IMG/VR virus record: IMGVR_UViG_3300030380_001392
Coordinates: 1 to 22,715 of that record
Origin: a virus
DNA length: 22,715 bases
Reading direction: 5' to 3' (one strand)
In this document: piece by piece, positions 6,038-20,535 of the stretch
How positions within the stretch are numbered: the stretch's first letter is position 1
How the letters are laid out: every line of letters begins with the position of its first letter
Position numbers and translations under genes: made by a program
The notes under the pieces: model-generated
What the model was told of the DNA's origin: nothing
The model's input: only the letters and a program-made list of their open reading frames with translations
Databases searched by the model: none

Positions 6038-6866
6038 CGAAACAATGACCACCGAACCAACAGATAGCCCACAAACAGAACAAAATTCAGAATCTGTTCT
6101 AGGGTCTGGTTCAGTAGGTGAAAATCAAAACTGGAGGGATAGTTTACCTGAGGAATTGAAGAATGACCCTACTCTACAGAATTACAAGGATGTAGAATCA
6201 TTAGCAAAAACTGTAGTACATCAACAAAAAATGATAGGTAGTAGAATACCTATACCTAAAACTGAAGAGGAAAAGACTGAACTCTATAGTAAATTAGGTA
6301 GACCTGAAGAACCAGGCAAATATGAAGTTGCAGTTCCAGAGGATTATCAACAATTCTTTAGAGAAGAATCAATGAATGAGTTTAGAAGTGTAGCTCATAA
6401 AATAGGTCTTAATAACGAACAAGTACAAGCACTTATGGATTTTCAAATTAATGAAATAAACCATGAGATGCAAGGTGCAGATACACAGCTTAACTCGCAA
6501 AGAGAAGAGATAGAACAAAACCTTAAACAAGAATGGGGTTATGACTACGACAAAAATGTAAAAGCAGCACAAAGAGCCGTACAAGTTTATGGAGATGCTG
6601 AAGTACAAGAATTGTTAAATGGCGAGTTAGGAAACAATCCAGCATTAATTAAGATGTTTGCTAGATTAGGAAAAGAAGTTACAGAAGATATGGCACAAAA
6701 TACACAGAACAACACATTATCTGTTTCTCCATTAGATGCAAAACAAGAGATTGCTAATATTATGAATAATCCAAAGCATCCATATTTTGATGGCAGACAT
6801 AGAGAACATAAAGATGCTGTAGAAAAAATGCGACAACTACACGAAAAAGCATTTGGCACAAGCTGA
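6030..6866 (+). CDS. Putative capsid scaffolding protein
   Basis: The likely internal scaffold on which capsid subunits assemble before packaging. The assignment rests on position (between portal and capsid) and composition: 278 residues, acidic and Gln/Asn/Glu-rich, with a disordered start and long predicted helices. The segment DSLPEELKNDPTLQNYKDVE followed by SLAKTVVHQQKMIGSRIPIP and the PGKYE motif is typical of podoviral scaffold-type proteins. The C-terminal portion has the common DAKQEIANIMNN, HPYFDGRHREH and AVEKMRQLHEKA features, the last being a short basic amphipathic helix that could contact the capsid. AAGGAGG at 6014-6020, 9 nt before the ATG, gives one of the strongest ribosome sites in the window, fitting a protein needed in many copies. 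Confidence 0.82.
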   Translation: MADETMTTEPTDSPQTEQNSESVLGSGSVGENQNWRDSLPEELKNDPTLQNYKDVESLAKTVVHQQKMIGSRIPIPKTEEEKTELYSKLGRPEEPGKYEVAVPEDYQQFFREESMNEFRSVAHKIGLNNEQVQALMDFQINEINHEMQGADTQLNSQREEIEQNLKQEWGYDYDKNVKAAQRAVQVYGDAEVQELLNGELGNNPALIKMFARLGKEVTEDMAQNTQNNTLSVSPLDAKQEIANIMNNPKHPYFDGRHREHKDAVEKMRQLHEKAFGTS

Positions 6867-6882
6867 TTTTTTGTGATATAAT
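6853..6882 (+). promoter_or_regulatory. Sigma70-like promoter for the capsid gene
   Basis: TTGGCA at 6853-6858 (5/6 match to TTGACA) is followed by an 18-nt spacer and a perfect TATAAT at 6877-6882. The -35 box lies in the last codons of the scaffold gene and the -10 box in the only real intergenic gap. Transcription would begin near 6889 and give a leader of about 114 nt before the capsid ATG at 7003. AT-rich DNA produces chance matches, but a near-consensus pair at the one place where a boost for capsid mRNA would be expected is good support. Confidence 0.6.
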
Positions 6883-6892
6883 TTTCGTACCA

Positions 6893-6967
6893 GTTCGCCC
6901 AGTAGGATAACGATATGGTAGCCGTGTGTGGCTATAAACCATAGGTTTCCCTTTTTGGATAAAAACC
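6893..6967 (+). promoter_or_regulatory. Structured 5' leader of capsid mRNA (tandem bulged hairpins)
   Basis: The capsid leader can fold into consecutive hairpins. The clearest one pairs TATGG (6914-6918) with CCATA (6939-6943) and TAGCC (6919-6923) with GGCTA (6930-6934), giving 10 pairs with a GTGTGT loop and a 4-nt TAAA bulge on the 3' side. Directly after it, GGTT (6944-6947) pairs with AACC (6964-6967) and TCC (6948-6950) with GGA (6957-6959), again with a TAAA bulge (6960-6963) on the 3' side. A weaker stem pairs GTT 6893-6895 with AAC 6909-6911. The capsid Shine-Dalgarno GGAGGA (6990-6995) lies unpaired downstream. Possible roles are mRNA stability, translational control or protein binding. 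A weak terminator is an alternative, since a T-rich stretch follows the first hairpin. Confidence 0.5.
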
Positions 6968-7002
6968 GAGAGACTAAAATTTATTTTATGGAGGACTGAA
7001 TT

Positions 7003-7866
7003 ATGTCAGTACAAATAACTACAGCTTTTATAGAACAATATAAAAGCAATGTTTTTCATTTGGCACAACAAAAAGGTTCGAGATTAAGAGATGCTGTAAA
7101 AACTGAAACAGTAAATGGTAAAGCCCATTACTTCGAAAGAATCGGTACAACTGCAGCATTAAAAAGAACATCCCGTCATTCTGACACTCCAAGAGTTGAC
7201 ACTCCTCATTCAAGAAGAAGGGTAACTATGGAAGATTATGACTGGGCAGATTTAATCGACAACGAAGATAAAGTAAGGATGCTTATAAGTCCTGAATCAG
7301 AGTATGCACAAGCTGGTGCTTGGGCAATGGGAAGAGCAATGGATGATGCAATTATTGATGCAGCTTCTGGTAATGCCTTTGGTGGTGTTGCTGGTGGTTC
7401 AACTGTAGCTTTACCATCTGGACAAAAAATTGTTCACGGCTCTGCAGGTTTATCAGTTACAAAACTTATCGAAGCCAAAGAAATTTTAGATGCTAACAGT
7501 GTAGACCCAGAAGAACCTAGGTTCTGTGTTGTTACATCAAAACAGCTATCAGACTTGTTAGCAATTACTCAAATTACATCTGCAGACTTTAACTCTGTTA
7601 AAGCATTGGTGCAAGGTGATATAGATACTTTCATGGGATTTAACTTTATAAGAACTGAAAGACTAGACACTAATGCATCAAGTAACAGATTAGTTTTAGC
7701 ATTTGCTCAATCTGGTATAGGCCTTGCTGTCGGCCAAGATGTTCAAACTAGAATATCCGAAAGGGCAGACAAAAATTATGCAACACAGGTATTCTTGTCA
7801 ATGACTATCGGTGCAACTCGTATCGAAGATGAAAAAGTTGTTGAGATAGAATGTACTGAAAGTTAA
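7003..7866 (+). CDS. Major capsid protein
   Basis: The icosahedral shell subunit, 287 residues. It carries the signature of a podoviral capsid family (recalled as Phage_capsid_2, PF19821): HSDTPRVDTPHSRRRVTMED, then YDWADLIDNEDKVRMLISP and YAQAGAWAMGRAMDDAI (about residues 58-117). It then has RFCVVTSKQLSDLL and a TFMGFNFIRTERL segment, which correspond to the HK97-like P- and A-domain strands of these proteins. The gene has its own promoter and a structured leader, and GGAGGA at 6990-6995, 7 nt before the ATG, is a strong ribosome site. All of this fits a very highly expressed protein. Its position between scaffold and tail genes agrees. Confidence 0.93.
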   Translation: MSVQITTAFIEQYKSNVFHLAQQKGSRLRDAVKTETVNGKAHYFERIGTTAALKRTSRHSDTPRVDTPHSRRRVTMEDYDWADLIDNEDKVRMLISPESEYAQAGAWAMGRAMDDAIIDAASGNAFGGVAGGSTVALPSGQKIVHGSAGLSVTKLIEAKEILDANSVDPEEPRFCVVTSKQLSDLLAITQITSADFNSVKALVQGDIDTFMGFNFIRTERLDTNASSNRLVLAFAQSGIGLAVGQDVQTRISERADKNYATQVFLSMTIGATRIEDEKVVEIECTES

Positions 7867-7881
7867 TAGGAGGAATCAAAA

Positions 7882-8391
7882 ATGGCAACAGCTAAATCAG
7901 TAGAAATAACAGCACTTGATGCTTCGCCTAGAGAGGTCCTAGAAACTGGAAGTTTACAGGGCAGGATGCGAGTAGCAAGTGGAACGATTGCAGCTGGAAC
8001 AGGCGACATTGATAATGATGATGTATTAATGATGGTACAAATCCCATCTAATGCAAAAGTATTATCAATCAAACTATTCAATGATGATTTAGATTCTAAT
8101 GGCTCACCAACTTTGGCAGCCAATGTAGGTCTATATTATGAGAATGGTACTGTTCTTGATGAAGATTGTTATGCAACAGCTATAACAACTTTACAAGCTG
8201 CAGAAACAGGTGGAGCTGAAGTTGCTTTCGAGGCAAGAAATGTTAATGCAGTTTCTAACTTTGCATGGGAAGATGGTGGTTTATCATCAGACCCAGGTGG
8301 AGCTTTAAGAATAGCTTTGACTATGTCTAATGTAGCAGCAACAGCAGCAGCTGGAGATGTAACACTAATTGTTACATATGTTGTAGACTAA
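7882..8391 (+). CDS. Putative capsid-associated (decoration-like) protein
   Basis: This 169-residue protein is Ala/Thr/Asp-rich with short alternating beta-strand segments: VLMMVQIPSNAKVLSIKLFN, DLDSNGSPTLAANVGLYYE and ALRIALTMSNVAATAAAG. It has no cysteine-rich or membrane segment. A near-perfect AGGAGGAA (7868-7875) 6 nt before the ATG predicts high expression, and it follows the capsid gene by only 15 nt. In many marine podoviruses a protein with the same IPSNAxVxSIKLFNDDLDS pattern follows capsid. A head decoration or minor head protein is the likely role, inferred from place and expression. A hairpin ends the transcription unit just downstream. Confidence 0.65.
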   Translation: MATAKSVEITALDASPREVLETGSLQGRMRVASGTIAAGTGDIDNDDVLMMVQIPSNAKVLSIKLFNDDLDSNGSPTLAANVGLYYENGTVLDEDCYATAITTLQAAETGGAEVAFEARNVNAVSNFAWEDGGLSSDPGGALRIALTMSNVAATAAAGDVTLIVTYVVD

Positions 8392-8400
8392 AAACAACAA

Positions 8401-8426
8401 GAGGGGGTAGTTTCGGCTACCCTCTT
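8401..8426 (+). terminator. Stem-loop between head and tail genes
   Basis: GAGGGGGTAG (8401-8410) pairs with CTACCCTCTT (8417-8426) over 10 base pairs, two or three of them G-U, around the loop TTTCGG, which can form a UUCG tetraloop closed by U-G. It is by far the most G+C-rich hairpin in the window. No long U-run follows (TCTTACAA), so it is more likely a partial terminator, attenuator or mRNA 3' stabiliser than a full stop. It lies 12 nt before the tail gene start and just ahead of its AAGGTG ribosome site, so it could lower tail-gene expression relative to capsid. Confidence 0.6.
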
Positions 8427-18123: not shown

Positions 18124-20535
18124 ATGGCAATATCAACAACAATAATTAAGAATAGTTACAGTGGAGACGGGTCTAGCGATACCTTTGCATACCAGTTTAA
18201 GATAGCTGCAGATGCAGATATACAGGTTATTATTAGGTCATCTACTGGTGCAGAGACTGTAAAAACCCTTACTACACATTATACAGTAACTGGTGCAGGA
18301 AATGCAACAGGTGGTAATGTAGTCTTTGAATCTGGACATATACCTACATCTACAGAAACAGTAGTTATAAGAAGAAATACAACACAGACACAAACACTTG
18401 ACTTAGTAGAAAACGACCCATTTACAGCAGATTCTGTAGAAGGTGCATTTGATAAGAACCTTGCTGCTATACAAGAGTTACAAGAGCAGGTAGATAGGTC
18501 ATTTAAAGTATCAAGAACTAATACAATATCATCATCAGACTTTACAGACAATGCTACTACAAGAGCTGGTAAAACACTAGGATTTGATTCATCAGGTGAT
18601 TTGACTACAGTTGCAGACTTCTTACCAGCAGGTGGAGATTCAGCATTATTTAAATACTCAACAACTACATCAGAGGCAGACCCAGGAGCTGGTGTATTTA
18701 GAATGAACAACACTACATTTTCTAATGTTACAGAGCTTTACATTGATGATGCTGATTTAAACGGCTTAGATGTTGCAGCATGGGTACAATCTTTTGATGA
18801 TGTGTCTGGCAACGATACCAATAGAGGTCGTATCAGAATACAAAATGCAGGAACATTAACATCTTATATTACATTTAAAGTAAGAGGTGCAGTATCTGAC
18901 GAAACTGGATATACAAAAGTATTAGTAACTCACATAGCATCAAACGGCACACTAGCTAATGATGCAAAAGCATTTATATCTTTTGTACCTAGTGGTGAAG
19001 ATGGTGCAATACCAGGATATTTCTATAAGTTTGATACAGGCACAAGTGATGCAGACCCTGGAGCAGGAGAGATAGCATTTAATAACGGAACATATGCTTC
19101 AGTAACAAGAATATATATAGATGATGCAGATGCAAATGGTGTTACTACTTCTACAGATGTTTTAACATGGGATGATAGCACATCTACAATTAAAGGATAT
19201 TTACATATAGTAGACATAAATGATGCTAGTACATATGCAAGATTTTCTATTACAGGAACTAGTACAGATGGTAGTGGTTATAACACATTAGTAGTTACAC
19301 ATATAGCATCAAACAATACCTTCTCAGCAGCAGATGAGTTATCAGTACACTTTAGCAGAAATGGTGATAAGGGTGATACTGGTTCTACTGGTAGCACAGG
19401 GTCTACTGGTAGTACAGGAGCAACTGGTGCAGCTGGTACAAACTCACAATTATCTATGACATTTGAAAGCACAACCTCTGATGCTGACCCAGGTGCAGGT
19501 AAGATTGCATTTAACAATGGCACAGTATCTAGTGTAAATGTACTCTTTATAGATGATGCAGATGATGCAGGTGCAGATATATCTGGTTATGTGCAGAGCT
19601 TCGATGATGTATCTAATACAGTAGCAAGAGGAATAATAACAATAACAAAAGAAGGTACAGCTAGTACCTTTGCTACATTTAAAGTTAGTGGTGCTGTTAC
19701 AGATGCAAGTGGTTACACTAAAGTACCTGTTACTCATGTAGTAAGTAGTGGAACTTTCTCTGACAATGATGGAGTAGGAGTACACTTCAGTTATAGTGGA
19801 GCAGACGGAGCAGATGGTGCAGATGGTGCAGATGGCTCTGGTTCTATGTCAAGTTTTACTCTTGCAGGAGATAGTGGTTCTAATCAAACTATTGCAGATG
19901 GCAACACCCTAACTGTTACAGGTGGAGAAGGTATAGATACTGCTGCTAGTGCAACAGATACGATTACAATATCTGGTGAAGATGCAAGTACATCTAACAA
20001 AGGTGTAGCTCAATTCAGCTCAGATAACTTTGCAGCATCGTCTGGAACTATAACAATTAAAGATGGTGGTGTAAACAATGATGAACTAGCAGGTAGTATA
20101 ACAAATGCAAAACTTGCTACTCCTGGTTTAGTTGTGCAAGTAGTAACTGCTACTTCGACATCAACAAAATCTACAACAAGTACTTCATTTGTAGATACAA
20201 ATTTAAGTGCTAGTATTACACCAAGTTCTAGTTCTAACAAAGTTTTAGTTTTAGTACAAGGTCAAATGTTTATTAACACTGATGGTGGACAAGCAATAAC
20301 AACTATATTAAGAGATACAACTAATTTAGGAAATAGTGATAGAGGTATGATGCAACATACTGATTTTGAAGATAGATACCAAGGCAATGCTTCTATGATT
20401 GTTTTAGATTCTCCATCTACAACAAGTTCTACAACATATAAAGTTCAAATAAAAGTTTATAGTGGTAGTCATACTATTTTCTTTGGTGTTGATGCCACAC
20501 CACAAACAATAACATTATTGGAGATAACAGCATAA
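18124..20535 (+). CDS. Tail fibre / tail spike with T7-type N-terminus and collagen-like linkers
   Basis: The host-recognition fibre, 803 residues. Residues 1-165 form the virion-attachment domain of the T7 tail-fibre family (PF03906): KNSYSGDGSSDTFAYQFKIA, then HYTVTG, VVIRRNTTQTQTLDLVENDP, AAIQELQEQVDRS. Three copies of a roughly 110-residue beta module follow, with DPGAG at 186, 311 and 455. Modules two and three are followed by collagen-like Gly-X-Y runs (about 414-438 and 559-573). Residues 573-670 have the TLAGDSGSNQTIADGNTLTV type stem, and the last ~130 residues are a Ser/Thr-rich beta-sandwich likely to be the receptor-binding tip. TGAGGA at 18112-18117 lies 6 nt before the ATG, in the 34-nt gap after the ejection genes. 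Confidence 0.9.
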   Translation: MAISTTIIKNSYSGDGSSDTFAYQFKIAADADIQVIIRSSTGAETVKTLTTHYTVTGAGNATGGNVVFESGHIPTSTETVVIRRNTTQTQTLDLVENDPFTADSVEGAFDKNLAAIQELQEQVDRSFKVSRTNTISSSDFTDNATTRAGKTLGFDSSGDLTTVADFLPAGGDSALFKYSTTTSEADPGAGVFRMNNTTFSNVTELYIDDADLNGLDVAAWVQSFDDVSGNDTNRGRIRIQNAGTLTSYITFKVRGAVSDETGYTKVLVTHIASNGTLANDAKAFISFVPSGEDGAIPGYFYKFDTGTSDADPGAGEIAFNNGTYASVTRIYIDDADANGVTTSTDVLTWDDSTSTIKGYLHIVDINDASTYARFSITGTSTDGSGYNTLVVTHIASNNTFSAADELSVHFSRNGDKGDTGSTGSTGSTGSTGATGAAGTNSQLSMTFESTTSDADPGAGKIAFNNGTVSSVNVLFIDDADDAGADISGYVQSFDDVSNTVARGIITITKEGTASTFATFKVSGAVTDASGYTKVPVTHVVSSGTFSDNDGVGVHFSYSGADGADGADGADGSGSMSSFTLAGDSGSNQTIADGNTLTVTGGEGIDTAASATDTITISGEDASTSNKGVAQFSSDNFAASSGTITIKDGGVNNDELAGSITNAKLATPGLVVQVVTATSTSTKSTTSTSFVDTNLSASITPSSSSNKVLVLVQGQMFINTDGGQAITTILRDTTNLGNSDRGMMQHTDFEDRYQGNASMIVLDSPSTTSSTTYKVQIKVYSGSHTIFFGVDATPQTITLLEITA
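18652..19797 (+). repeat. Three tandem coding modules in the tail fibre
   Basis: Three diverged copies of a module of about 345 nt begin near 18652, 19024 and 19447. Each encodes TTSxADPGAGxxxxNN, then IDDAD, a region ending in SGYTKVxVTHxxSxGT (GYNTLVVTHIASNNT in copy two) and FSxxG at the module end. The DPGAG motif starts at 18679, 19054 and 19486, so spacing is 125 codons and then 144 codons because a collagen-like linker intervenes. Similarity is still visible in the DNA around DPGAGxIAFNNG in copies two and three, suggesting duplication within this gene or recombination among fibre genes. Confidence 0.75.
19363..19437 (+). repeat. Collagen-like repeat 1 (18-nt period)
   Basis: About eight Gly-X-Y triplets encoding GDKGDTGSTGST, further GST units, then GATGAAG. 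At DNA level an 18-nt unit recurs at 19381-19398 and 19399-19416 with two differences, and a third, more diverged unit follows at 19417-19434. Collagen-like runs in phage fibres form trimeric triple helices and change length easily by slippage. Confidence 0.85.
19801..19836 (+). repeat. Collagen-like repeat 2 (9-nt period, four copies)
   Basis: Four consecutive 9-nt units, GCAGACGGA, GCAGATGGT, GCAGATGGT and GCAGATGGC, encode Ala-Asp-Gly. They form the collagen-like linker after the third fibre module (residues about 559-573). The two identical central units mark recent expansion or a slippage-prone site. Confidence 0.85.

Follow-up and report, generated by a model that had tools for sequence, protein, structure and literature searches.

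A structured RNA leader with a recurring internal-loop module upstream of the capsid gene in HTVC010P/Baldr-like pelagiphages

The capsid locus and the structure of the leader

The window (the whole stretch of DNA that was analysed, 22,715 nucleotides or 22.7 kb, from a virus record of 34,583 bases) contains late genes of a podovirus, an HTVC010P/Baldr-like pelagiphage, and its terminase, portal, capsid and tail genes were named by PHROG matches. All features of the capsid locus described below lie on the + strand. The major capsid gene (7003..7866; PHROG 3437, major head protein) encodes a protein with 76% identity to the capsid protein of Pelagibacter phage Baldr and 57% to that of the more distant HTVC010P. 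It is followed by a gene (7882..8391) without a PHROG match, whose product shares 45% identity with HTVC010P gp10 and, judged by its position, is probably a head protein. The scaffold gene stops at 6866, and the stretch 6867-7002 between this stop and the capsid ATG at 7003 is non-coding. Elsewhere in the window, a DNA methyltransferase-like gene (PHROG 359, 402-947) lies immediately upstream of the large terminase gene, and at 18672-19564, within a tail-fibre-like gene, an 86-nt sequence is directly repeated three times with imperfections, close to a Gly-Ser-Thr stretch of collagen-like character. In the GenBank records OQ414636/OQ414635 the locus tags of Baldr and Hodr are exchanged (the Baldr record is tagged EXVC031PHodr, and vice versa).

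We examined the DNA upstream of the capsid gene in the best 80 of 434 relatives, as ranked by capsid. Every one of these 80 loci had, upstream of the capsid gene, a hairpin with the pattern stem-C-CC-loop-GG-A(U/C)AA-stem'. This hairpin, with its characteristic internal loop, the C/AYAA module, was counted 148 times in the leaders and not once in the remaining 1.12 Mb of strand sequence from the same loci. A covariance model (R1) was built from 38 leaders with a hand-drawn structure and matched 58 of 61 sources (all except L137, L139 and L099). In the resulting alignment of 58 non-redundant leaders, which was fitted to R1 so that the pairing statistics favour the drawn structure, 94.7% of cells were paired, compared with 31-53% when the partners were slid. 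Both sides had changed at 18 of the 23 pairs, and 206 cells were double-compensated versus 61.1 +/- 6.5 after shuffling. Unconstrained RNAalifold recovered the first and last conserved hairpins (H1 and H4) with identical internal loops. Folding energy alone is a weak test here (z = -2.13 for 6889-7005, which includes the ribosome binding site, and -0.91 for 6889-6990). Judged by this comparison of sequences, the scaffold-capsid intergenic stretch is a structured RNA leader, and its structure is well supported. The sequence-only reading had proposed a dedicated RNA element because of its repeated architecture and had named the absence of compensatory changes as a refutation; such changes were sought and found, and the strong covariation among relatives bears the proposal out.

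The leader of the window comprises three hairpins, and those of relatives three to five. The first, H1 (6895..6913; UCG-C-CC-AGUA-GG-AUAA-CGA), which the sequence-only reading had overlooked, carries the first copy of the C/AYAA module and is the best covarying helix, above all in its lower stem. H2 (6915..6942) has an upper stem at 6920-6923/6930-6933, followed by AUAA, and a lower stem at 6915-6919/6938-6942. It corresponds to a hairpin previously placed at 6914-6943, of which the upper stem AGCC/GGCU proved to be conserved, whereas the lower stem AUGGU/ACCAU, or an equivalent of at least four pairs, was found in only 4 of the 58 leaders, indicating that it is lineage-specific. The region between H2 and H4 holds an optional hairpin, H3, in 31/58 leaders, but not in the window. 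H4 (6944..6967; GGUUU-C-CC-UUUUU-GG-AUAA-AAACC) is the second copy of the module and is present in 58/58 leaders. A hairpin had been predicted at the same position with a TAAA bulge, but this register was wrong: covariation of the upper stem supports GGUUU-C-CC/GG-AUAA-AAACC, in which AUAA lies opposite an unpaired C. H1 and H4 thus share a 1x4 internal loop, with C opposite A(U/C)AA and flanking C-G pairs; 54/58 H1 and 58/58 H4 hairpins have C/AUAA or C/ACAA.

The ribosome binding site, GGAGG (6990..6994), is not part of any conserved stem, as had been suggested from the window itself. The distance from H4 to the ATG ranges from 26 to 80 nt (34 leaders measured), and this variability implies that the leader is uncoupled from the ribosome binding site. 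Sequestration of the Shine-Dalgarno (SD) sequence was considered, as the start of the leader is paired with the SD region in the window's minimum-energy fold, and was rejected because the same bases form H1 across relatives. In L083, L086 and L131 a further hairpin (GAAUA...UAUUC with an inner stem) between H4 and the ribosome binding site seems, by eye, to be conserved within a subgroup. The motif AACTT(T)AA was found within 45 nt before the capsid ATG in 11/32 and 8/38 unique leaders, versus about 0.6 and 0.9 expected; we take this motif ahead of the ribosome binding site to resemble the epsilon enhancer of T7 gene 10.

The promoter assigned to this locus by the sequence-only reading, TTGGCA-N18-TATAAT (6853-6882), is present in the window, matches at 11 of 12 positions and is the best of 23 promoter candidates in 7 kb, a total that is not in excess of the shuffle mean of 23.9. 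Its -35 part did not hold up among relatives: the -35-like hexamer TTGGCA (6853..6858), which lies within the final scaffold codons, is not conserved, and the relatives' leaders average 3.7 of 6 matches compared with 3.1 in shuffles. The conserved part is the extended -10, TGATATAAT (6874..6882), which is of the host sigma-70 type and lies at a fixed distance from H1. The TG was present in 49/58 leaders, a -10-like element was located 13-21 nt upstream of the H1 bulge in 54/58, and an extended -10 occurred 11-20 nt before H1 in 51/58, versus 15% in shuffles. Given this near-constant spacing, transcripts should begin at H1 or within a few bases of it, and the predicted start in the window is 6889..6890, about 7 nt past the -10.

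Occurrence of the module in other phages

The HTVC010P-type phages were analysed in a separate set (best 80 of at least 598), in which 77 loci were usable and three (L256, L268 and L269) lacked upstream DNA. Their first hairpin, GUAAG-ACAA-UUC-GNAA-GAA-C-CUUAC, contains the same loop with the strands exchanged. In an alignment of 35 leaders (A3; 33 of the 77 loci and two isolates), 98.8% of cells were paired and 70 double changes were counted versus 17.8 +/- 6.2, and unconstrained folding of the leaders agreed with the drawn structure. The strict swapped descriptor was satisfied in 55 of the 77 leaders. Outside the leaders it gave 57 matches, all at one site just inside the scaffold gene, where a hairpin with the AYAA/C loop is located about 10 nt within the coding region in 62/64 HTVC010P-type loci (L196:4762-4788 in HTVC010P). 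The stems of this hairpin are compensated although the encoded peptide varies (pairing 0.91 with their own arms versus 0.71 with swapped arms; seven distinct stems). No promoter was visible beside the scaffold-gene copy in HTVC010P-type phages, and the copy is absent from Baldr/window-type phages.

Both orientations are combined in Vibrio phage CKB-S2, whose capsid is 29% identical: one hairpin of each kind directly follows the -10, and both loops are present in the minimum-energy fold of the leader. Another Vibrio phage, PG9A-2, lacks the module even though its capsid and scaffold are 83% and 63% identical, respectively, to those of CKB-S2; a plain GC hairpin takes the place of its leader. 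By BLAST, which could miss distant homologues and hence a shared phage factor, CKB-S2 has only portal, capsid and tail-tube proteins in common with G000 and Baldr, and additionally the terminase with HTVC010P. Since PG9A-2 has every protein that CKB-S2 shares with the pelagiphages and yet lacks the module, a host partner, or none, is favoured.

Searches with Rfam 15 gave no match at the gathering score for the window or eight related loci, in agreement with the earlier statement that the element belongs to no named RNA family; a relaxed score yielded one chance-level miRNA match. Among the openly licensed papers that were searched, none describing the leader was found, and nothing useful on scaffold autoregulation in P22. 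Model R1 detected no second copy in the genomes of G000 or Baldr, and the strict descriptor matched G000 and CKB-S2 in the leader only and gave one weak B-type match elsewhere in Baldr. The strict module was not found in HTVC028P, Skadi, ZP6, MEP301, Hodr, K300, YeP5, PG9A-2, Vibrio 1.182.O, ct8d5349 or an Escherichia phage; Skadi, in our reading, escapes the strict scan because of a large insert in its first hairpin. Phage ct9yY11 passes only with a 2-bp lower stem, and the two matches in ct3Et533 overlap. Capsid-based scans returned two relatives for CKB-S2 and one for ct9yY11. Among 113 newly fetched viral loci with the pattern, 15 had no capsid gene downstream; all 15 were scanned and none scored E <0.09.

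In cellular genomes, the H4 pattern, which is specific enough that a host element with the bare module could be missed, matched seven contigs; apart from L293 and L290, these had E >0.1 or no match to the model. L290 (E 0.005) was taken as a chance match, as no H1 was visible and the contig had been selected by the H4 pattern. L293 (NHDJ01000148.1) is filed under a Verrucomicrobia MAG but is phage-like: it has the complete leader together with the beginning of a capsid-like gene, which makes misbinned phage DNA the probable explanation.

The capsid transcription unit and the possible function of the leader

Downstream of the capsid gene and its neighbour, a conserved, terminator-like GC hairpin (8401..8426) may end the unit. 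Its U-tract is weak in the window and full in many relatives, where a textbook terminator comes after the capsid gene and, as a rule, a second gene. A GC hairpin with a U-run within 900 nt after the capsid gene was found in 16/47 window-type and 29/55 HTVC010P-type unique loci, compared with 0 in shuffles, and CKB-S2 has a terminator-like hairpin right after the capsid gene. By eye, a stem-loop, mostly without a U-run, follows the capsid region in Baldr, HTVC028P, Lederberg, Greip, HTVC100P, Skadi-2 and HTVC035P.

The leader lies at the 5' end of its transcript and is uncoupled from the ribosome binding site, the unit tends to be short and the shared genes are few, which together favour a 5'-end mRNA element. 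We therefore propose, tentatively but as the leading reading, that the leader acts in cis from the 5' end of the capsid mRNA and makes this message abundant by stabilising or boosting it, in a manner similar to T7 gene 10; a stabilising leader had been among the suggestions of the sequence-only reading. Transcription from the host-type extended -10 promoter would start a few bases before H1, and the nascent RNA would fold into the three hairpins seen in the window, two of them built on the C/AYAA loop, and the ribosome site would stay unpaired. Across many relatives, transcription would continue through the capsid gene, mostly also through the gene after it, and end at the terminator-like hairpin. 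The leader may protect the 5' end against RNA decay by the host while keeping the downstream site accessible to ribosomes, and the C/AYAA loops perhaps bind a widely conserved host factor. The T7 gene 10 unit consists of a promoter, a 5' stem-loop leader, a free A/U-rich stretch, a strong ribosome binding site, the capsid gene and a terminator. The pelagiphage unit shares this layout, including the hairpin leader ahead of the capsid gene, with a U-run terminator only in the loci counted above. It differs in its host-type promoter, where T7 has a promoter for the phage polymerase, and in its several hairpins with a conserved C/AYAA loop, where T7 has one plain stem-loop. The E. coli ompA-type 5' stabilisers have a stable stem-loop at or near the transcript 5' end, which is the likeness to the leader; the conserved internal-loop module and the multi-hairpin array are the difference. 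In Cupriavidus, the T7 gene 10 stem-loop is described as increasing expression 1.5-3-fold and stabilising the mRNA (PMC6146998). The plain GC hairpin of PG9A-2 also speaks for a 5' element, as if any stable 5' hairpin sufficed.

Simple protection, however, requires no conserved internal loop and leaves the scaffold-gene copy of HTVC010P-type phages unexplained, and the poor U-tract of the window's own terminator-like hairpin also counts against the proposal. In both hairpins the sequence of the C/AYAA loop is almost invariant, even when the strands are swapped, which points to specific recognition. Together with the scaffold-gene copy, this strictness lends some weight to a put-like antiterminator and to a protein operator, both discussed below. 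A more far-reaching proposal, which we consider rather unlikely, is that C/AYAA is a previously undescribed two-orientation RNA block, read by a factor widely conserved in bacteria, be it RNA polymerase, a ribonuclease or a ribosomal protein. Podoviruses infecting hosts from SAR11 to Vibrio would use it to single out capsid messages, and scaffold messages in some lineages, for preferential expression.

Recognition by RNA polymerase itself would be expected if the nascent leader were a put-like antiterminator that binds the host enzyme, so that it passes terminators, as put RNAs let it do without the help of a protein, and transcribes the late genes past the capsid gene. The put RNA of HK022 is described as about 70 nt long, with two tandem bulged stem-loops just downstream of the promoter, and putL as about 70-100 nt of such stem-loops (PMC9378689). 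The likeness of the leader to putL/putR is one of layout alone, that is, promoter-proximal tandem bulged hairpins of similar size. The conserved bulges would suit direct contact with the polymerase, terminator-like hairpins precede the tail genes, and host RNA polymerase is reported to serve related phages, which are said to have none of their own (PMC10504331). Unlike the HK022 elements, the leader is placed upstream of a capsid gene, contains three or more hairpins and has a terminator closely downstream; a conserved terminator soon after a constitutive antiterminator, as right after the capsid gene of CKB-S2, would be pointless. As G000 and CKB-S2 also lack a second strict module outside the leader, we regard antitermination as rather unlikely.

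The module could also be an operator to which a phage protein, such as scaffold or capsid, binds and so tunes the scaffold-to-capsid ratio. Binding by capsid or scaffold, already suggested by the sequence-only reading, is weakened by the comparison of PG9A-2 with CKB-S2, whereas the HTVC010P-type scaffold-start module, with its compensatory changes under a varying peptide, keeps a shared binder alive. The two module copies per leader suggest two binding sites, and the pattern loci that carry the leader all adjoin a capsid gene. The scaffold copy is nevertheless missing from Baldr/window-type phages and the ribosome site is not covered by the leader hairpins, making an operator unlikely. In MS2-type RNA phages, the coat-protein operators are bulged hairpins near capsid or scaffold translation starts; here the phage has a dsDNA genome, the 4-nt bulge lies opposite a C and the leader hairpins are away from the ribosome binding site. 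In carrying one module in tandem, the leader resembles tandem-hairpin riboswitches, and the loops of H1 and H4 are constrained in sequence. A ligand-sensing riboswitch, or a leader processed to a trans-acting small RNA, is very improbable all the same: the leader shows no conserved expression platform, with a free ribosome binding site, a variable gap to the ATG and no terminator-like site inside it, and has no Rfam match.

A cis-acting mRNA leader is of a kind already known; the surprising part is the internal-loop module that recurs in both orientations. Under the proposed 5'-end function, the leader and the terminator would define a capsid expression unit in phages reported to be without their own RNA polymerase, which bears on how HTVC010P-type phages time and dose their late genes, and the C/AYAA loop provides a handle for finding the factor involved. 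Among known pelagiphage groups, the HTVC010P type is reported to rank second in abundance (PMC12753301), and the leader probably helps to make enough shell protein in many of the ocean's commonest bacterial viruses. A paper on Skadi is reported to have found neither terminators nor riboswitches in such a genome (PMC10504331), so this layer of control appears to have been overlooked.

By eye, phages ZP6 (L204), K300 (L302) and YeP5 (L299), which have related capsids, carry different hairpin-like leaders with repeated GGUAGC-type motifs, and in ZP6 and K300 a TATAAT lies just ahead of the leader. These leaders are possibly an analogous element.
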